Positions 2,534-36,518 of a stretch of 42,368 nt of DNA are shown here, piece after piece. The notes beneath the pieces are model-generated. The model was given only the letters and a program-made list of their open reading frames with translations. It searched no databases and had not been told where the DNA came from. Both the position numbers and the translations under genes were made by a program. The DNA comes from Candidatus Omnitrophota bacterium (GTDB lineage Bacteria; Omnitrophota; Gorgyraeia; Gygaellales; Profunditerraquicolaceae): positions 1 through 42,368 of the forward strand of contig JAKLQX010000059.1 in the NCBI GenBank assembly GCA_022013085.1. The letters run 5' to 3'. Position 1 is the first letter of the stretch. Every line of letters starts with the position of its first letter.

Positions 2534-2929
2534 ATGTCGAGAACAGACTTAATAGCAGATATTTTCACAATAATTCGTAATGCCACAATGATTAAAAAAG
2601 ATGTTGTGGATCTTCCGTCATCCAATAACATTAAGTCAATTATGGCAATTTTGAAGAAGAATGAGTATATTGATAATTTTAAGCTTATTGAAGATAAAAA
2701 GCAGGGTTTAGTCAGGGTTTATTTAAAGTATATCGCAGGAAAATCAGCAATCCGCAGTATTAAACGTGTTTCTAAGCCAGGATTAAGGGTTTATGTTAGT
2801 TGTAAAAAGGTTCCTATAGTGCTGCGTGGCCGGGGCTTGGCAATTGTTTCTACTTCAAAGGGCGTGATTACGGATAAGGAAGCTAGGGAGTTAGGCGTAG
2901 GCGGAGAGATTATCGGTTACATTTCATAG
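2534..2929 (+). CDS. rpsH: 30S ribosomal protein S8
   Basis: S8 is a central-domain 16S rRNA binder and, in E. coli, the translational repressor of the spc operon. The 131-aa protein has the family opening DLIADIFTIIRNA and the C-terminal GRGLAIVSTSKGVITDKEAR followed by GGEIIGYIS. It has a clear SD (AAGGAG, 2522-2527) supplied at the end of the family II element. A second family II element follows its stop directly. Confidence 0.98.
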   Translation: MSRTDLIADIFTIIRNATMIKKDVVDLPSSNNIKSIMAILKKNEYIDNFKLIEDKKQGLVRVYLKYIAGKSAIRSIKRVSKPGLRVYVSCKKVPIVLRGRGLAIVSTSKGVITDKEARELGVGGEIIGYIS

Positions 2930-3014
2930 CACTCGGCCCGAAAGGAAGTGGGCGGGGTACTCTCGTGAGTTAACACCCGGCCCGAAAGGAAGTGGCCGGT
3001 GTACTTTCGTAAGT
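2930..3014 (+). repeat. Family II element, copy 2 (rpsH-rplF), two tandem units
   Basis: Two head-to-tail units of about 43 bases (2930-2972 and 2973-3014). Each has a large hairpin with the shared interior GGCCCGAAAGGAAGTGG, followed by a mini-hairpin. The mini-hairpins are ACTCTCGTGAGT in unit 1 and ACTTTCGTAAGT in unit 2, a compensatory C-G to T-A change that preserves pairing. The large stem of unit 2 is ACACCCGGCC/GGCCGGTGT with one bulged C. The SD AAAGGA of rplF follows immediately. Confidence 0.85.
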
Positions 3015-3027
3015 AAAGGAAAAATAA

Positions 3028-3575: not shown

Positions 3576-3651
3576 ATGAGCCCCGCACCTTCTTCATATC
3601 GATATATTAAGAAGCGTGGGGTTTGAATAATAAATAAGGAAGGTGCGGGGT
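3576..3651 (+). repeat. Family I intercistronic element, copy B (rplF-rplR)
   Basis: The left arm CCCCGCACCTTCTT (3581-3594) pairs with the right arm ending GAAGGTGCGGGG (3639-3650). The loop holds a second right-arm-like copy, AAGAAGCGTGGGGT (3609-3622), as an alternative partner. The upstream ATG at 3576 opens MSPAPSSYRYIKKRGV and stops at TGA 3624-3626. The same frame then continues to the TGA at 3651-3653 that overlaps the rplR GTG start. TGAG flanks both ends (3577-3580 and 3651-3654), compatible with a target-site duplication. Confidence 0.87.
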
Positions 3652-4009
3652 GAGAAAAAAAGAAGAGTTAAGGCTTAAAAGGCATAAAAGAATTAAAATG
3701 AGGATGTTGGGAACTGTCGAGAAACCTCGTCTGGTGGTGCATCGTTCCTTAAAGAATATTTCCGCTCAGGTATTAGATGATACTACGGGAAAAGTTTTAT
3801 TCTCGCTTTCTACTAAGGATAAAGTGATAAAGCAGAAATTTGTTAAAGGCGGAGATTTAAAGTCGGCTGTGCTTTTTGGCGAACTTTTTGCTAGTCAGGC
3901 GAAAGAAAAAGGGTATAGCAAGATAATTTTTGATCGAGCAGGGTATCTTTATCATGGCAGGATTAAAGCATTTGCCGAAGCCTTAAGAAAAGGTGGAATG
4001 GAGTTTTAA
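3650..4009 (+). CDS. rplR: 50S ribosomal protein L18
   Basis: L18 binds 5S rRNA and brings it into the 50S subunit. The 119-aa protein carries RLKRHKRIKMRMLGTVEKPR and the C-terminal FDRAGYLYHGRIKAFAEALRKGGMEF, both diagnostic. The GTG start at 3650-3652 is formed by the last base of family I copy B plus TG. Initiation therefore depends on the element's right arm, which carries AAGGTG as an SD-like sequence. Confidence 0.97.
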   Translation: MRKKEELRLKRHKRIKMRMLGTVEKPRLVVHRSLKNISAQVLDDTTGKVLFSLSTKDKVIKQKFVKGGDLKSAVLFGELFASQAKEKGYSKIIFDRAGYLYHGRIKAFAEALRKGGMEF

Positions 4010-4472: not shown

Positions 4473-4551
4473 ATGAACCCCGCACCTTCTTTATCTTCAT
4501 CTTTTAAGAAGTGTGGGGTTTGAATAGTAAATAAGGAAGAAGGTGCGGGGT
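4473..4551 (+). repeat. Family I intercistronic element, copy C (rpsE-rplO)
   Basis: A perfect 15-bp inverted repeat: ACCCCGCACCTTCTT (4477-4491) and AAGAAGGTGCGGGGT (4537-4551). The loop contains AAGAAGTGTGGGGTT (4506-4520), which pairs with the same left arm over nearly its whole length with one bulge and one G-U pair. ATG 4473 opens [16 protein letters not shown] and stops at TGA 4521-4523. The frame is again continuous with the terminal TGA 4551-4553, which overlaps the rplO GTG. TGAA occurs at both flanks. Its interior is closest to copy B. Confidence 0.88.
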
Positions 4552-5122
4552 GAAAGAGAAAAAATTAACAGCTAAGCCGATAATTAAAAAGGAAATAGTT
4601 AAGAAACTAGTAGTTAAGAAACCAGCTATTAGGAAGGCGCTTTCTAAAAACATTGAAGAGAAGCCGCAGATAAGCTTGGTTTCTTTGCATAATATAAAGG
4701 TGCCGTATGGCGCGCATAAAAAAAGAAAACTTTTAGGGCGCGGCCCAAGTTCCGGCCATGGTAAAACATCTACGCGCGGAAGCAAGGGGCAAACCTCTCG
4801 CGCAGGAAGGCATTTTTATTTAGGTTTTGAAGGGGGACAATCTCCGCTTATCCGCAAAATGCCCAAGCGCGGTTTTGTAAGTGTTTCTAAAAAAATTTAT
4901 CAGATTGTTAATTTAGAAAATTTAAATAAAATAAAAGCAACTATAATTACTCCGCAGCTTTTAAAAGAAAATGGCTTGATTCGTAATGAGCTAGGGTGTA
5001 TCAAGATATTAGGAAATGGCTCTATTAAACATGCGGTGACTATTCAGGCGCATGTATTCTCAAAGCGTGCTGCTGCCGAGATCGTTAGTGCGGGTGGTAA
5101 AGCAGAAATCATAAATGTTTAA
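4550..5122 (+). CDS. rplO: 50S ribosomal protein L15 with N-terminal extension
   Basis: L15 is a late-assembly 50S protein. The canonical core begins near residue 45 (VPYGAHKKRKLLGRGPSSGH) and continues with GKTSTRGSKGQTSRAG and FEGGQSPLIRKMPKRGF. Ahead of it lies an extra segment of about 45 residues rich in Lys, Ile and Val, with repeated VKKPxI/IKKE-like pieces. The family normally starts close to the GRG motif. The GTG start lies in family I copy B's sister copy C, and no rpmD precedes it. The last eight bases overlap secY. Confidence 0.93.
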   Translation: MKEKKLTAKPIIKKEIVKKLVVKKPAIRKALSKNIEEKPQISLVSLHNIKVPYGAHKKRKLLGRGPSSGHGKTSTRGSKGQTSRAGRHFYLGFEGGQSPLIRKMPKRGFVSVSKKIYQIVNLENLNKIKATIITPQLLKENGLIRNELGCIKILGNGSIKHAVTIQAHVFSKRAAAEIVSAGGKAEIINV

Positions 5123-7108: not shown

Positions 7109-7852
7109 ATGATTCCCTTGAAGTCGGAAAAAGACCTGCAGATGTTAAGCCGATCTGGGAAAATTTTGGCAGGCGTAATGAAGAGAGTAAGAAAATTTGT
7201 GCGGGCGGGGATCACAACTGCTGATATTGATCGCTATAGCGAAGAGTTGATTTTAAAAGAAAAAGCTATACCTGCTTTTAAAGGTTATAAAGGTTTTCCG
7301 GCATCGGTTTGCGTTTCAGTAAATGATGAGATTGTGCATGGTATCCCGGGAGCAAGGGTTATTTTAGACGGGGATATTGTGAGTATAGATTTAGGTGTGA
7401 ATTATCAAGGTTATTTCTCAGATGCTGCCGTAACTTTAGCAATTGGCCGCGTTCAGAGTGATAAAAAGAAGTTGATTGAGGTAACTAGCCAGGCTCTTGA
7501 TATAGGTATTAAGCAGTGCTGCGTGGGAAATAATTTAAGTGATATTTCTCATAGTATTCAAAATTTTGTAGAAGGACGCGGGTTTCAAGTTGTGAGGCAA
7601 TTTGTTGGCCATGGGATAGGTCAAACTTTGCATGAAGAGCCTGAAATTCCTAATTTTGGGAAACCGCATTTAGGCCCACAATTAAAAAGCGGAATGGTTC
7701 TGGCAATTGAGCCGATGGTAAATATGGGTAGTTGGGAAGCTCAGATTGCCGCTAATGGTTGGACAGCAGTAACTTGCGATGGCGCAAGCTCTGCGCATTT
7801 TGAACACACAGTTGCTATTACCGATAAAGGGCCGGTAATATTGACAAAATAA
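7109..7852 (+). CDS. map: Type I methionine aminopeptidase
   Basis: This metalloprotease removes N-terminal Met from nascent proteins. The 247-aa product begins directly after the adk stop. Metal ligands are visible in VSIDLGVNYQGYFSDAAVT (two Asp), FVGHGIGQTLHEEP (His) and VLAIEPMVNMG (Glu), with a further Glu in HFEHTVAIT. A family III structured element follows before infA. Confidence 0.97.
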   Translation: MIPLKSEKDLQMLSRSGKILAGVMKRVRKFVRAGITTADIDRYSEELILKEKAIPAFKGYKGFPASVCVSVNDEIVHGIPGARVILDGDIVSIDLGVNYQGYFSDAAVTLAIGRVQSDKKKLIEVTSQALDIGIKQCCVGNNLSDISHSIQNFVEGRGFQVVRQFVGHGIGQTLHEEPEIPNFGKPHLGPQLKSGMVLAIEPMVNMGSWEAQIAANGWTAVTCDGASSAHFEHTVAITDKGPVILTK

Positions 7853-7854
7853 CA

Positions 7855-7969
7855 GTTATCTCCCTCGCGTAAACGCTTGATAATTTCTTCGAAATTATCG
7901 CGCACGCTCGGGATAAATTCACGCATTAACTTACTCACACAACGTGCTCGTAAGTTAAGCGTTCATTTA
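7855..7969 (+). repeat. Family III structured element, copy 1 (map-infA)
   Basis: The outer stem is TTATCTCCC (7856-7864) with GGGATAA (7910-7916), enclosing an ATAATTTC/GAAATTAT hairpin (7880-7898). A second stem, CGCATTAACTTAC (7922-7934) with GTAAGTTAAGCG (7950-7961), is capped by CAC-AAC-GTG (7938-7946). The element ends right at the infA ATG with no recognisable SD. Copy 2 at 8389-8510 shares the stems almost exactly but has unrelated, equally self-complementary apical hairpins. Confidence 0.85.
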
Positions 7970-8188
7970 ATGCCGAAAGAAGACCTCATAGAAACAGAAG
8001 GTAAGATTATTGAAGCATTGCCGAACGCAATGTTTAAGGTAGAGCTGGAGAATGGGCATGTGGTTTTGGCGCATGTTTCAGGTAAGATGCGTATGAATTT
8101 TATCAGGATTCTTCCGGGGGATAAAGTAAAGTTAGAACTTTCTCCTTACGATCTAACGCGTGGGAGAATTACGTTTAGGGTGAAATAA
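7970..8188 (+). CDS. infA: Translation initiation factor IF-1
   Basis: IF-1 is an OB-fold factor that binds the 30S A site during initiation. The 72-aa product, [19 protein letters not shown] onward, is nearly collinear with the family to its end ([15 protein letters not shown]). The frame is open upstream to 7877, but that stretch is family III repeat and the family begins at this Met. There is no SD directly upstream. The stop overlaps the ATG of family I copy D in a TAATG junction. Confidence 0.97.
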
Positions 8189-8266
8189 TGAACCCCGCAC
8201 CTTTTAAATATTCAACTACTAAAGCTGTCTGGTTTAATAAATTAAATATGAAAGAAGGTGCGGGGT
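8188..8266 (+). repeat. Family I intercistronic element, copy D (infA-rpmJ)
   Basis: The left arm ACCCCGCACCTT (8192-8203) pairs perfectly with AAGGTGCGGGGT (8255-8266). A diverged internal copy, AAAGCTGTCTGGTTT (8221-8235), lies in the loop. It is preceded by ATGAA overlapping the infA stop and followed by TGAA, so TGAA occurs at both ends. The right arm gives rpmJ its GTG start and SD-like AAGGTG. Confidence 0.86.
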
Positions 8267-8268
8267 GA
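8188..8268 (+). CDS. Small coupling ORF across family I copy D (26 aa)
   Basis: An uninterrupted 26-codon frame starts at an ATG overlapping the infA TAA and ends in a TGA overlapping the rpmJ GTG. The peptide starts [11 protein letters not shown] and ends NMKEGAG. Start and end match the equivalent ORF at 31926. Both junctions overlap, so a ribosome leaving infA could restart here and then restart at rpmJ. Whether the peptide itself has a function is unknown. Confidence 0.42.
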
Positions 8269-8378
8269 AAGTTAAAGCATCGGTGCGGAAGATTTGCGAT
8301 AAGTGTAAAGTAATCAGAAGAAGAGGCGTAGTGCGCGTAATTTGTGCAACTGCCAAACACAAACAAAGACAAGGGTAA
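8265..8378 (+). CDS. rpmJ: 50S ribosomal protein L36
   Basis: L36 is a small zinc-ribbon protein of the 50S subunit. The 37-aa product [20 protein letters not shown]...[12 protein letters not shown] matches the family over its full length. The cysteines CDKC, the later Cys and the His of AKHKQ form the C-C-C-H zinc site. GTG start in family I copy D. Located between infA and rpsM as in most bacteria. Confidence 0.96.
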
Positions 8379-8388
8379 GTAAGGAAGG

Positions 8389-8510
8389 TATCTCCCGCCT
8401 CAGAAGCTATGCCAAAATTTTCTACGATAATTTTGGCATATTCGGCGGGATAAATTCACGCATTAACTTACTCTCCGCCTACGGCGGATCGTAAGTTAAG
8501 CGTTCATTTA
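8389..8510 (+). repeat. Family III structured element, copy 2 (rpmJ-rpsM)
   Basis: The outer stem is TCCCGCC (8393-8399) with GGCGGGA (8444-8450), enclosing an 11-bp hairpin ATGCCAAAATT (8409-8419)/AATTTTGGCAT (8429-8439). The second stem CGCATTAACTTAC (8459-8471)/GTAAGTTAAGCG (8491-8502) is capped by TCCGCC-TAC-GGCGGA (8474-8488). The two stretches flanking the caps are identical to copy 1 over 27 and 23 bases. The rpsM SD AAGGAG (8511-8516) follows at once. Confidence 0.86.
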
Positions 8511-8521
8511 AAGGAGCAGAT

Positions 8522-17779: not shown

Positions 17780-19099
17780 ATGTCTATGTATGATTTGTCT
17801 ATTATCGGAGCTGGTTGGGCAGGTTTCAACGCTGTGTTCAGGGCAAAACAATTAGGCCTTAAAGTTTGTCTTATCGAAGGTAATCAAATCGGCGGAACTT
17901 GCCTTAACCGCGGTTGTATCCCTACTAAGGCTTTAATCCAATCCGCAAAAATATATTCCCTGGCAAAAAAATCATCTGTTTTTGGCATTGAGTCAGATAA
18001 TCCACGCCTTAATTTTAACAAAATTCAAGAACGGAAAGATAAAATTATTAAGCTTCTCAAGCTCGGCATGCAAAGCAGGCTTGTGGGTATTGATTTTATC
18101 AACTCTTACGCGGAAATAATTTCTGCAAATGAAATAAAAACTTCTAATGAGGTGATAAAAAGCAAATTTATACTCATTGCTACGGGAAGCCAGCCGGCGG
18201 TTATTCCTGAGTTAGCGTTTGATCATATAAAAGTAATTAATAGTGATGATATTTTGTCTTTAACTGAAATTCCACAATCCTTGTTAGTTATTGGAGGCGG
18301 GGTTATAGGCTGTGAATTTGCTAGTTTGTTTTCAATTCTAGGTAGTCAGGTATCGGTGATAGAAAAGATGCCATTTATTTTACCTAACGAGGACAAAGAA
18401 GTAGGAAGAAAAATGGGGGTAATTTTTAAGAAAAATGGGGTAAATGTTTCTGTCAATACTGATGTTTTGAATATTGATTTGAATCAATATTCAAAAATTT
18501 TGGTTTGCGTGGGTAGAACTCCTAATGTAGCAGGATTAGGTTTAGAAAAGTTGGGAGTAGCATTAGAAAGTGGGAGAGTTGTGGTTAATGACTATTTAGA
18601 AACCAGCATTCCCAATATCTATGCAAGCGGTGATTGCGCTAGTCGAGTAATGCTGGCACATTATGCAGCTTATCAAGGTGAAATAGCAGTTGGTAATATG
18701 GTAAGCAAGCTCAAGTCTAAAGCAGATAATACAGTTATTCCTAGTTGTATATTTACTGATCCTGAGATTGCTAGCGTTGGATTAAATGAAGACCAGGCAT
18801 TAAAAACTCAAATAGCAATTAAAGTGCATAAATTTGATTTTCTCAGGTCTGGGATGGCGCGTATTATGGAAGAGAGCGAAGGATTTATTAAGGTGATAAG
18901 TGATGATAAAAGCCAAGAGATAATTGGTGCGACTATTATTGGCCCAAAAGCAACGGAATTAATTGCTGTTTTTTGCGTAGCAGTTTCAGCACATCTAAAG
19001 GTTAACCAGCTTCGTGATATAATCTTTGCGCATCCTACGCTTTCAGAATCAATAGGTGAGGCTATGTGTAATAGTATCTCAGGCACCCCGCGCTTATAG
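17780..19099 (+). CDS. lpdA: Dihydrolipoamide dehydrogenase
   Basis: FAD-dependent E3 enzyme that reoxidises dihydrolipoyl groups with NAD+. The 439-aa protein has an N-terminal FAD motif (SIIGAGWAGFNAVFRA) and the redox disulfide Cys41/Cys46 in GGTCLNRGCIPTKAL. The NAD motif is VIGGGVIGCEFASLF, and the dimer-interface catalytic block is FAHPTLSESIGEAM. The last codons (GTPRL and stop) lie inside a family II repeat, so the natural C-terminus may have been trimmed by the element. Confidence 0.94.
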   Translation: MSMYDLSIIGAGWAGFNAVFRAKQLGLKVCLIEGNQIGGTCLNRGCIPTKALIQSAKIYSLAKKSSVFGIESDNPRLNFNKIQERKDKIIKLLKLGMQSRLVGIDFINSYAEIISANEIKTSNEVIKSKFILIATGSQPAVIPELAFDHIKVINSDDILSLTEIPQSLLVIGGGVIGCEFASLFSILGSQVSVIEKMPFILPNEDKEVGRKMGVIFKKNGVNVSVNTDVLNIDLNQYSKILVCVGRTPNVAGLGLEKLGVALESGRVVVNDYLETSIPNIYASGDCASRVMLAHYAAYQGEIAVGNMVSKLKSKADNTVIPSCIFTDPEIASVGLNEDQALKTQIAIKVHKFDFLRSGMARIMEESEGFIKVISDDKSQEIIGATIIGPKATELIAVFCVAVSAHLKVNQLRDIIFAHPTLSESIGEAMCNSISGTPRL

Positions 19100-19204
19100 G
19101 AATTGCGCGGGTGTTCGCCTGGTGGCGAAAATTGCGCGGGTGTGCCCTTGTGGTCTAACACCCGGCCTTAATGGAGTGGCCGGTGTGCCCTTGTGGTCAA
19201 GGAG
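19080..19204 (+). repeat. Family II multi-hairpin element, copy 3 (lpdA-lipoyl gene)
   Basis: One left arm CACCCCGCGC (19084-19093) faces two identical right arms GCGCGGGTG (19105-19113 and 19134-19142), separated by the small hairpin TCGCCTGGTGGCGA. This arrangement allows two alternative folds. A second unit, ACACCCGGCC (19158-19167) with GGCCGGTGT (19178-19186), has the same bulged C as the rpsH-rplF copy. The element ends in the SD AAGGAG (19199-19204). It overlaps the last codons of lpdA. Confidence 0.85.
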
Positions 19205-24392: not shown

Positions 24393-24409
24393 AAGTTAAT
24401 AAGTTAAGA

Positions 24410-24556
24410 ATATAGGTTAAGGGAAATCCGTAGATTCGGATGCGGTCCCGCCGCTGTAAGGGTATACGAAAGCTGCAAGAAGTCACTGTCCTGAGATAAA
24501 AGGATGGGAAGACGCAGTAAGTAGGTTAAAACCTGAGCCAGAAAACCTGCCTATAT
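24410..24556 (+). promoter_or_regulatory. Cobalamin riboswitch upstream of cobC
   Basis: The aptamer shows the conserved core GCGGTCCCGCCGCTGTAA (24442-24459), AGTCACTGTCCTGAG, GGGAAGACGC and GAGCCAGAAAACCTGCC. The closing helix pairs TATAGGTT near 24411 with AACCTGCCTATA near 24545. Binding of a B12 coenzyme is the established role. The intrinsic terminator at 24604-24650 makes it a transcriptional switch. It lies in the 365-base gap after cobA and would govern the genes from 24718 to 36282. Confidence 0.95.
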
Positions 24557-24603
24557 AAAGTAAGTATTGCCTCGTGGAATGGGCCAAAAGTATTATTAGG
24601 GTG

Positions 24604-30406: not shown

Positions 30407-31929
30407 TGAAACAGTCAAAAGCAATTCAGGTTTGCGGCACAGGTTCAGGCGTAGGCAAAAGCGTGATCGTTACTGCTTTATGCCGTATTTTCTTACAGGA
30501 TGGTTTTAAGGTGTGCCCTTTTAAAGCTCAGAATATGGCATTAAATTCTTACGTTACCAAAGACGGCGGTGAGATAGGCAGGGCGCAGGCAACTCAGGCG
30601 CAAGCGGCTAAGATTGCTCCCAGCGTGGATATGAATCCTATATTAATTAAACCTACGTCCGATAGAAAAGCCCAAATAATTGTAAAAGGACGGCCTGTAA
30701 GAAATATGTCAGTTTATGAATATGTTAATTATAAGAAAAAAGCGCAAAATATAGTATTAAAATCTTTTCGGCGTCTGGCAGAAGAATATGAGTTGGTGAT
30801 TATTGAAGGCGCGGGATCTCCGGCGGAAGTAAATCTAAAATCGCACGATATAGTTAACATGCGCATGGCAAAACACGCCAACGCCCCCGTGCTCTTGGTG
30901 GGAGATATTGATAAAGGCGGCGTTTTTGCCTGGATAGTGGGGACGCTTGAGCTTTTAACTAAAGAAGAAAGAAAAAGAATAAAAGGTATAGTGATTAATA
31001 AATTCAGGGGTGATAAAAGATTATTGAGGCCAGGCATAGATTTTCTGGAGAAAAAGACAAGAGTAAAGGTTTTAGGTGTTATACCTTATTTTAAGGACAT
31101 AAAAATCGCGGAAGAGGATTCGGTTCCCCTTGAAAAGCGGGCTGGAGGAATAAATAATCAGGAAATACAAAAAGAGGGGCAGTTAAACATAGCAGTAATC
31201 AGCCTGCCGCACATGTCTAATTTTACCGATTTTGACGCCCTGGAAAATGAACCTGGTGTCAGGTTACGCTATGTATCTTGCGAAAGCGAGCTTGGCAATC
31301 CTGACGCGATTATTATCCCGGGGACAAAAAGTACCGTTAGCGATTTAAATTACTTAAAAAAAACCGGGTTGGCAGAAAGGATAGCTTTAATTGTTAAGAA
31401 TCATCCAACAACTCATCTCATCGGGATTTGCGGTGGATACCAGATGTTGGGAGAGAGGATTAACGACCGTAGGGCAACGGAATCAGCGCAAAAGTCAGTT
31501 AAAGGTTTGAGGATCTTACCGATAGCTACTAGTTTTGAAAAAGAAAAAATTTTATCTTGCGTAAAAGCAAAAGACATGGTTTCAGGGTTAAAGGTAACGG
31601 GTTATGAAATCCACCATGGCAGGACGCGAATCCTTAAAAAGTGTAAGCCTATTTTTAGGATTACGGAACGGCAAGGGAAAAAGGTGAAAGAATTAGACGG
31701 GGCAATTTCCAAAGACGGCAGAATCTGGGGTACTTATCTTCATGGCGTTTTTGATGAGGATAATTTCAGGAGGAGTTTTCTAAACAAATTGAGGCTTAAG
31801 AATGGCTGGCCGCCTTTGGCTGTGATTTCGAGTTTTAGTCAAGATAAAGAATTTGATAAACTTGCCAGGCTTGTCAGGGAAAATATTGATATGGATTTAT
31901 TGTATAAGATTGCAGGCCTTGGACTATGA
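30406..31929 (+). CDS. cobQ: Cobyric acid synthase
   Basis: CobQ/CbiP amidates the b, d, e and g carboxylates of adenosylcobyrinic acid a,c-diamide using glutamine and ATP. The 507-aa protein has an N-terminal dethiobiotin-synthase-like domain (VCGTGSGVGKSVIVTALCRI, PFKAQNMALNSYVTKDGGEI) and a C-terminal glutaminase domain. The latter has the Cys nucleophile in LIGICGGYQMLG and His in YEIHHGRT and TYLHGVFD. The TAATG junction couples it to cobD. Its stop overlaps the ATG of family I copy E. Confidence 0.96.
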   Translation: MKQSKAIQVCGTGSGVGKSVIVTALCRIFLQDGFKVCPFKAQNMALNSYVTKDGGEIGRAQATQAQAAKIAPSVDMNPILIKPTSDRKAQIIVKGRPVRNMSVYEYVNYKKKAQNIVLKSFRRLAEEYELVIIEGAGSPAEVNLKSHDIVNMRMAKHANAPVLLVGDIDKGGVFAWIVGTLELLTKEERKRIKGIVINKFRGDKRLLRPGIDFLEKKTRVKVLGVIPYFKDIKIAEEDSVPLEKRAGGINNQEIQKEGQLNIAVISLPHMSNFTDFDALENEPGVRLRYVSCESELGNPDAIIIPGTKSTVSDLNYLKKTGLAERIALIVKNHPTTHLIGICGGYQMLGERINDRRATESAQKSVKGLRILPIATSFEKEKILSCVKAKDMVSGLKVTGYEIHHGRTRILKKCKPIFRITERQGKKVKELDGAISKDGRIWGTYLHGVFDEDNFRRSFLNKLRLKNGWPPLAVISSFSQDKEFDKLARLVRENIDMDLLYKIAGLGL

Positions 31930-32025
31930 ACCCCGCACCTTCTAAATATTCATCATTTTTTAAAGCGTTAAGATTTAAGGGAATAAATATAAGCAGAATA
32001 CTGAATACGAAAGAAGGTGCGGGGT
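31926..32025 (+). repeat. Family I intercistronic element, copy E (cobQ-cbiB)
   Basis: A perfect 14-bp inverted repeat: ACCCCGCACCTTCT (31930-31943) and AGAAGGTGCGGGGT (32012-32025). It is the only copy outside the ribosomal block, about 23 kb from copy D. TGAA occurs at both ends (31927-31930 and 32025-32028). The right arm provides the GTG start and SD-like AAGGTG of cbiB. The loop contains AAAGCGTTAAGATTT (31962-31976), a decayed relative of the internal arm copy seen in copies B and C. Confidence 0.87.
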
Positions 32026-32027
32026 GA
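31926..32027 (+). CDS. Small coupling ORF across family I copy E (33 aa)
   Basis: ATG 31926 overlaps the cobQ stop (ATGA) and opens 33 uninterrupted codons ending at TGA 32025-32027, which overlaps the cbiB GTG. The peptide starts MNPAPSKYSS and ends NTKEGAG, the same ends as copy D although the middle differs. The double overlap would let ribosomes pass from cobQ to cbiB. A peptide function is not indicated. Confidence 0.42.
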   Translation: MNPAPSKYSSFFKALRFKGINISRILNTKEGAG

Positions 32028-32968
32028 ACTACGAATTATTAATTATTCCGCTTGCGTATATTTTGGATTTGGTTTTTGGTGATCCACAGTGGTATTGGCA
32101 TCCGGTAAGGCTCATCGGAAGGCTGATAGAAAGATTAGAAAATAAATTGAACACGGAAAGGATAAATAAAATATTTTGCGGAGCTGTCCTGGTTATTTTA
32201 GTGGTGGGGTTGACTGTTTTTGGCATAGGGGGCATACTAAAGTTAGCCAGATTAATTCATCCGTTTTTGTTTTACATTGTTTCCATATTATTTATTTATT
32301 TCTCTCTCTCTATCAGGGCCCTGGCAGCCGAAGCAATTAAAATTTATAAAAACCTGGAGTCCGGAGATATCCAAAAGGCAAGAAATAATCTTTCCCTGAT
32401 TGTCGGCAGAGATACTTTAGGATTAAATGAACAGGAAATAATCCGGGCAACCGTGGAAACCGTCGCGGAAAGCACTATGGACGGTATTATCGCGCCGCTT
32501 TTTTATGCTTTTTTAGGTGGGCCGGTTATGGCCTGGGTTTATAAAGCCATCAATACTTTAGATTCTATGGTGGGATATAGGAACGAAAGATTTAAAGAGT
32601 TTGGCTATGTATCCGCGAAACTGGATGGATGGTTGAATTTTATTCCATCAAAAATAACCTGTTTTTTAATAAGTGTTTCGATTTTCTGTTCCGGGAAAAG
32701 ATGGCTTTGCTCACTTAAAGAGGCCAAAAGATTCCTGTTAAGTGGGCCGGGGGCAAATAGTGACGCGGTAGAAGCTGCTATGTCCGGCGGCCTCGGAGTC
32801 CAGTTGGGCGGCCAGAATTTTTATGATTCAGTTGCGGTGGAGAAACCGTTTATTGGGCAGGCGGTTGAGCCGTTAAGTATTAAACATATCAGGCAGAGCG
32901 TGAGCATCGCGTATATATCTTCCGCGCTGATGTTAGTTATAGGGGTAGTAGTTTTTAAAAAGGGGTAA
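32024..32968 (+). CDS. cbiB: Adenosylcobinamide-phosphate synthase
   Basis: CbiB is a membrane protein that attaches aminopropanol (phosphate) to adenosylcobyric acid. The 314-aa protein starts with the signature LAYILDLVFGDPQWYWHPVR and has TVAESTMDGIIAPLFYAFLG and LLSGPGANSDAVEAAMSGGL. Several hydrophobic segments are present. The start is GTG at 32024, provided by family I copy E. The next gene follows after three bases. Confidence 0.94.
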   Translation: MNYELLIIPLAYILDLVFGDPQWYWHPVRLIGRLIERLENKLNTERINKIFCGAVLVILVVGLTVFGIGGILKLARLIHPFLFYIVSILFIYFSLSIRALAAEAIKIYKNLESGDIQKARNNLSLIVGRDTLGLNEQEIIRATVETVAESTMDGIIAPLFYAFLGGPVMAWVYKAINTLDSMVGYRNERFKEFGYVSAKLDGWLNFIPSKITCFLISVSIFCSGKRWLCSLKEAKRFLLSGPGANSDAVEAAMSGGLGVQLGGQNFYDSVAVEKPFIGQAVEPLSIKHIRQSVSIAYISSALMLVIGVVVFKKG

Positions 32969-36282: not shown

Positions 36283-36387
36283 AGATGATGTAGCGGTTGA
36301 ACATAAAAGACTAGGTAACGATGCCAGAGGAGGTGGTATTTTTGGTATTATATAAACACAGGGTAGGAGGAATTAATTAATTTATCC

Positions 36388-36500
36388 GGATAGGTAAAGG
36401 AAGTGAAGGTGAAATTCCTTTCGCTGCCCCGCAACGGTAATGTAAATCAGTAGGTAGTAAACTGTTTTACGAGCCCGGACGATTACCTGTTCTGGAAGTA
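36388..36500 (+). promoter_or_regulatory. Cobalamin riboswitch upstream of btuB
   Basis: The core shows GAAGTGAAGGTGAAATTCC (36400-36418), the B12 box CGCTGCCCCGCAACGGTAA and GAGCCCGGACGATTACCTG, then TTCTGGAAG. The closing helix is GGTAA near 36393 with TTACC near 36484. The only platform visible is the nearby SD GGGAGG (36508-36513), and no terminator hairpin is seen, so control of translation is likelier here than attenuation. An AT-rich stretch with TATTATATAAA (about 36346-36356) may hold the -10 region. The rest of the 36283-36387 gap shows nothing else. Confidence 0.95.
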
Positions 36501-36518
36501 TTCTCGAGGGAGGAAAAA

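Follow-up and report, generated by a model that had tools for sequence, protein, structure and literature searches.

Among the described systems closest to the repeats reported here (Family I), MITEs are likewise short and multicopy, with terminal inverted repeats and a target-site duplication, and each is a shortened form of a longer parent. Neither GIY-YIG nor start codons come up in a 2024 review of MITEs in prokaryotes (PMC10969869). The Rickettsia palindromic elements (RPE) are about 150 bp long, sit in unrelated genes in a translation-compatible manner and code for a conserved short peptide (PMC10969869); they are the nearest functional analogue. REP/RAYT systems also consist of dispersed palindromes, possibly served by one small enzyme. 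GIY-YIG homing endonucleases and the small GIY-YIG proteins of UPF0213 have in common with the Family I nuclease the catalytic domain PF01541. Well-studied GIY-YIG homing enzymes leave 2-nt 3′ overhangs.

Family I differs from each of these systems. Unlike in MITEs, the full-length copies encode only a GIY-YIG protein and no known transposase, and the target is a start codon, which the element rebuilds. Terminal inverted repeats occur in Family I and in two further families (II and III), and the target-site duplication has a fixed length of 4 bp, as in inverted-repeat DNA transposons, but none of the full-length copies is a same-ended parent with a DDE or other known transposase. RPE add in-frame residues inside proteins; Family I elements instead run up to the start codon, where they substitute their own start signal and do not extend the protein in frame, and they have a nuclease-coding parent. 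The Family I nuclease carries the GIY-YIG catalytic domain of homing endonucleases (Pfam PF01541) but, unlike these enzymes and UPF0213 proteins, is flanked by inverted repeats and a 4-bp duplication and dispersed over non-homologous genes, which is not the spread of a homing endonuclease, confined to cognate alleles and free of target duplication. Unlike REP/RAYT, full-length Family I elements have no Y1/HUH protein, and they show a 4-bp duplication and a start-codon site. Searches of open-access papers turned up nothing that describes this element. We file the combination of a GIY-YIG-only inverted-repeat element with start-codon rebuilding as categorically new, with a putative enzymatic role for the nuclease. 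Overall, we consider it likely that Family I is a mobile element that inserts into start codons and rebuilds them, with a full-length GIY-YIG parent and MITE-like short relatives.

The window, a stretch of 42,368 nucleotides, comes from a Candidatus Omnitrophota genome of 1.39 Mb (G000). The features of its five Family I copies, taken from the sequence and a copy table, are as follows.

365–472, + strand: copy A unit (captured ATG 365–367, element 369–469, right TGA 470–472)
469–471, + strand: rebuilt GTG start of rpmC (L29), downstream of copy A
365–472, + strand: open micro-ORF of copy A, 35 codons, from the ATG to a TGA overlapping the L29 GTG (MTPHLLKIQ...MNNKEGAG), by direct sequence reading
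3576–3654, + strand: copy B unit (ATG 3576–3578, left TGAG 3577–3580, element 3581–3650, right TGAG 3651–3654)
3581–3592, + strand: 5′ inverted repeat arm of copy B, typically CCCCGCACCTTC, pairing with the 3′ arm in a predicted RNA hairpin
3639–3650, + strand: 3′ inverted repeat arm of copy B, GAAGGTGCGGGG, containing a Shine-Dalgarno-like AAGGTG and the G of the rebuilt GTG
3650–3652, + strand: GTG start of rplR (L18), downstream of copy B
4473–4554, + strand: copy C unit (ATG 4473–4475, left TGAA 4474–4477, element 4478–4550, right TGAA 4551–4554)
4550–4552, + strand: GTG start of rplO (L15), downstream of copy C; relatives have uninterrupted ATGAAAGA-type starts
8188–8269, + strand: copy D unit (ATG 8188–8190, left TGAA 8189–8192, element 8193–8265, right TGAA 8266–8269), with an open micro-ORF of 26 codons within it
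8265–8267, + strand: GTG start of rpmJ (L36), downstream of copy D; empty ATGAAAGT in G003, G018 and G019, and a 3′-arm remnant in G020
31926–32028, + strand: copy E unit (ATG 31926–31928, left TGAA 31927–31930, element 31931–32024, right TGAA 32025–32028)
32024–32026, + strand: GTG start of a cobD-like gene, downstream of copy E

Other palindromic repeat families occupy intergenic gaps in the same operon and beyond (2388–2530, 2927–3026, 7852–7972, 8393–8518 and 19098–19186). An Rfam search matched no known RNA family at the Family I sites; its only matches were two cobalamin riboswitches over the cut-off (24397–24568 and 36375–36504), consistent with the cobalamin genes near copy E.

The original prediction was that each copy follows ATGAN and precedes TGAN with N agreeing at both ends. 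All five copies read ATGAN-CCCCGCACCTTC...GAAGGTGCGGGG-TGAN in this way except copy A; the flanks are TGAG/TGAG in copy B and TGAA/TGAA in copies C, D and E, and copy A (ATGA-...-TGAA) shares TGA only, all as predicted. A duplication of 3–4 bp at the original start codon had been proposed. Insertion at the start codon stands, and the duplication is refined to 4 bp, TGNN of ATGNN.

Flank identity also holds in many more copies. In the genus-wide set of 124 two-armed copies, with arms of about 12 bp, the 4-bp flanks matched exactly in 95; when the right flanks were shuffled 5,000 times, the mean was 68 matches and no shuffle exceeded 78. Since TGAA dominates the right flanks (79% of the 124), the strict test used only copies with another right flank. 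Here 14 of 26 matched; the expectation was 0.96, and none of 20,000 shuffles gave more than 5. Of the matched tetramers, TGAG, TGAT, TGCG and TGGA fit the TGNN of a start codon (ATGNN), and TCAA is the opposite-strand reading of two TTGA sites. For families II and III together with two Family I copies of other genera, TGAA/TGAA was found in 42/44, a count in which the left flank was fixed by the search pattern and the right flank was free.

The empty sites expected in relatives, a single ATGAN directly after the upstream stop, were found as ATGAG or ATGAA at rplR, rpmC and nrdR. At rplR, 19 relatives have a single ATGAG immediately after the rplF stop, and ATGAG-element-TGAG lies at the identical base in G000 and G015; G022 has a decayed copy and G010 only the 3′ arm. 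At rpmC, 11 relatives have a single ATGAA, and G002 and G020 retain 3′-arm-like remnants. The rpmC start codon of G005 and G024 (loci L172 and L187) carries an insertion of a different repeat, of the GTTCGACTTCGCTCAGGGTCATCCTGAG type. At nrdR, about 16 relatives are uninterrupted, with ATGAA, ATGAG or ATGCG starts. An intact GIY-YIG element occupies the site in G020 (ATGAA-...-TGAA), its near relatives G001 and G016, as well as G000, have an uninterrupted ATGAA, and in G023 this start is occupied by a short copy. Since the empty sites that were predicted do occur in relatives (at rplR, rpmC, rpmJ and nrdR), it is established that Family I inserts into start codons, including those of essential ribosomal genes. 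Four lineages carry Family I sequence at rplR, and on a phylogeny built from ribosomal proteins and SecY they are set apart from one another by neighbours with an empty site, so insertion on several occasions is a simpler account than exact loss on several occasions. Family I has been mobile over evolutionary time.

Precise insertion into start codons had been predicted; most insertions are at start codons, but not exclusively so. Besides the two TTGA insertions, a 26-nt palindrome with almost no loop lies at an internal ATGAA within another copy (L029), with TGAA duplicated. Therefore nothing beyond the two arms is needed for a mobile unit, and recognition of the target depends on its sequence, not on its being a gene start. 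ATGAA is also a preferred target, because in a rough assignment only 5 of the 42 ATG starts in the window read ATGAA. Serial insertion occurs in G010 and G015, where elements have entered the GTGAA created by an earlier element.

Restart of translation from GTG had also been proposed. A repeat ending in G does give GTG, and a repeat ending in A gives ATG. The 3′ arm GAAGGTGCGGGG places AAGGTG four bases upstream of the rebuilt GTG, and in 107 of 115 copies the start triplet at the junction opens an ORF of at least 60 aa or one that runs off the locus. Insertion at the start codon leaves the host protein essentially unchanged. Where genes overlap (ATGA), the duplicated TGA keeps the upstream stop as well, as at nrdR and in copy E, whose left TGAA contains the stop TGA of the upstream cobQ-like gene.

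G000 has 44 two-armed Family I copies genome-wide, typically with 73 nt between the duplications (range about 60–294 nt). A strict-pattern search found Family I ends in 36 of 384 sampled Omnitrophota genomes. G010 has at least 38 Family I matches and G015 at least 24; copy counts rest on the searched and retrieved stretches of each genome. Orientation, where assignable, is nearly always sense (91 copies), L074 being the clear inverted case. Length is a multiple of three in 73/93 copies, of which 57 are open, a frame bias that may come from shared descent. A functional micro-peptide is not well supported: pN/pS is 0.71 over codons 7–21 of 44 distinct 81-nt copies, and the frame is not kept in families II and III.

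A look for a transposase whose ends resemble those of the copies had been suggested. What matching ends enclose is a single-domain GIY-YIG nuclease. This Family I parent, overlooked by the original prediction, exists as copies of 294–295 nt whose whole length is one ORF, running from the captured ATG to a TGA that overlaps the rebuilt start and encoding a GIY-YIG nuclease of about 90–100 residues (Pfam PF01541, E 1e-12 to 1e-15). Its nearest solved chains are the UPF0213 proteins BH0048 and EF2693, followed by Slx1, and no further DNA-binding domain was detected in the protein. G020 has an intact 295-nt element, whose ORF (MNPAPSLNSIMYHAYLLKSK...NSLNKKEGAG) begins with the captured ATG and ends in a TGA that overlaps the nrdR GTG. 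Full-length relatives occupy the same nrdR site in G022 and G025, the G025 copy having lost its inverted repeats and kept its ORF. The G000 copy (L025), before purN, has 294 nt between the duplications and a frameshifted GIY-YIG ORF. A scan for the nuclease in GTDB contigs returned the copies of G020 and G022 (Omnitrophota MAGs STD1_209 and STD1_100) plus distant relatives, most of them next to a tRNA gene; no relative turned up when viral contigs were scanned. The Family I GIY-YIG gene was not detectable in the copy-rich G010 and G015.

A family-wide search identified the other two families, each with different inverted repeats, its own GIY-YIG gene, the arrangement ATGAA-...-TGAA and short copies.

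Family II: ends CCCCGCCCTTCC; nuclease copies L254, before hisI, and L255
Family III: ends YCCYGTTAGACC; nuclease copies L258 and L261, before a dsbD-like gene, and L260, before an efflux gene

In the nuclease copies of both families the ORF spans from repeat to repeat, and their genomes also hold short copies whose ends are related; in family III some of these (TTAGAAAC) mismatch the arms of the known nuclease copies (TTAGACC). Across the three families, full-length elements are 265–295 bp long and fully occupied by the GIY-YIG ORF. The protein is under selection, because dN/dS is 0.11–0.29 within families. Three independent inverted-repeat families thus each have their own GIY-YIG gene, the same anatomy, a 4-bp duplication and, for Family I, empty sites.

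Insertion is mainly at ATGAA or ATGAG, the element coming to lie between ATGNN and the duplicated TGNN. The last base of the 3′ arm joins TG to form a GTG or ATG start, with AAGGTG as a Shine-Dalgarno-like site a few bases upstream, and the captured ATG and the host's former ribosome-binding site would serve the element. We infer that the GIY-YIG nuclease cuts the target, the element ends or both as the elements move, and that the copies of about 45–150 nt are non-autonomous (MITE-like) and mobilised in trans. The rebuilt start would be translated, partly by coupling from the upstream ORF and probably helped by termination at the overlapping TGA. Family I is probably a new class of mobile element of less than 300 bp with a GIY-YIG nuclease as its mover. 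Our more specific model is favoured only slightly: a lone GIY-YIG protein of about 90–100 residues would act as transposase, a single ORF that includes the inverted repeats would make up an autonomous element of less than 300 bp, targeting of start codons by an element that brings its own ribosome-binding site and start triplet would make insertion in essential genes near-neutral, and related GIY-YIG genes would similarly restore stop codons and tRNA genes.

A first rival reading treats flank identity as an artefact, produced by common second codons and copy-to-copy conservation. It could be argued from the dominance of TGAA and from shuffled flanks that already match in 68 of the 124 copies, but the non-TGAA flanks and the single-copy empty sites already contradict it, and we give it practically no weight. 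Alternatively, Family I could consist of conserved RNA hairpins that attenuate translation of ribosomal protein genes by hiding the start site. A stem covering AAGGTG and the start is predicted in each of the five window copies (z −4.1 to −5.8), and four of these copies precede ribosomal protein genes. However, the same junctions lack the element in most relatives, the copies also precede unrelated genes (cobD-like, purN and nrdR), and duplications flank them. This reading is highly improbable and an origin as regulatory hairpins is rejected on the empty sites and duplications; a secondary regulatory effect of the hairpin is possible.

The remaining readings accept insertion and differ in what moves the element. 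A GIY-YIG enzyme that merely cut uninterrupted start-codon sites, with break repair copying the element from a homologous occupied locus, would suit a homing-endonuclease fold and the repeated occupation of rplR, nrdR and rpmC in different lineages. The insertions lie in tens of non-homologous genes with only ATGNN in common, though, and the duplication is not produced by homing into a cognate allele, which makes homing very unlikely. A transposase acting in trans remains the main rival to movement by the nuclease: a DDE-type enzyme encoded elsewhere would recognise the inverted repeats of classical MITEs and make the 4-bp duplication, with the GIY-YIG ORF as a passenger. Inverted repeats of about 12 bp with a 4-bp duplication are an ordinary DDE transposon or MITE signature, and this duplication is not simply explained by GIY-YIG, because the overhangs of homing enzymes are 2-nt and 3′. 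The absence of a detectable parent gene in G010 and G015, the frameshift in G000, the lost repeats in G025 and the mismatched arms of some family III short copies also count against a GIY-YIG mover. On the other hand, full-length elements are wholly GIY-YIG ORF in three families with differing inverted repeats. In G000, 31 of 32 exact 3′ arms have a partner within about 300 nt, so the assembled part of the genome showed no longer copy with a transposase. We therefore regard a DDE-type mover as unlikely, though well ahead of homing.

Selfish DNA can thus enter essential genes without splicing or excision, by supplying a replacement for the start signal. Should the GIY-YIG protein be what mobilises these elements, few autonomous DNA mobile elements would be smaller, transposition would have a new enzymatic basis, and start-codon-targeted insertion would gain a compact tool. 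Gene finders will misannotate the rebuilt GTG starts and captured ATGs.

Other small GIY-YIG genes were seen in the same searches. Eight (L114, L116, L132, L135, L162, L263, L266 and L270) are no more than about 30 nt away from a tRNA gene (Ser, Arg, Pro, Glu or Gln) in Omnitrophota and Elusimicrobia, several with a partial tRNA copy on the opposite side, as if the tRNA had been split and restored. L113 and L277 are GIY-YIG elements with ends CCCCGTTAGAGAT and a TAAA duplication; L277 sits in a phosphoglycerate-kinase-like gene, within its final codons and shortly before the following gene, and the L277 arm gives a new TAG stop. L112, L117 and L084 are GIY-YIG genes within GTCATTGCGAG...GAAGCAATC and GTCATTCTGAG...GAATCTC palindromic repeats. 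A separate small GIY-YIG clade without inverted repeats (L083, L119, L123, L125 and L130) keeps a conserved place before a MANFSFDIVSEVD-type gene and probably consists of vertical housekeeping copies.
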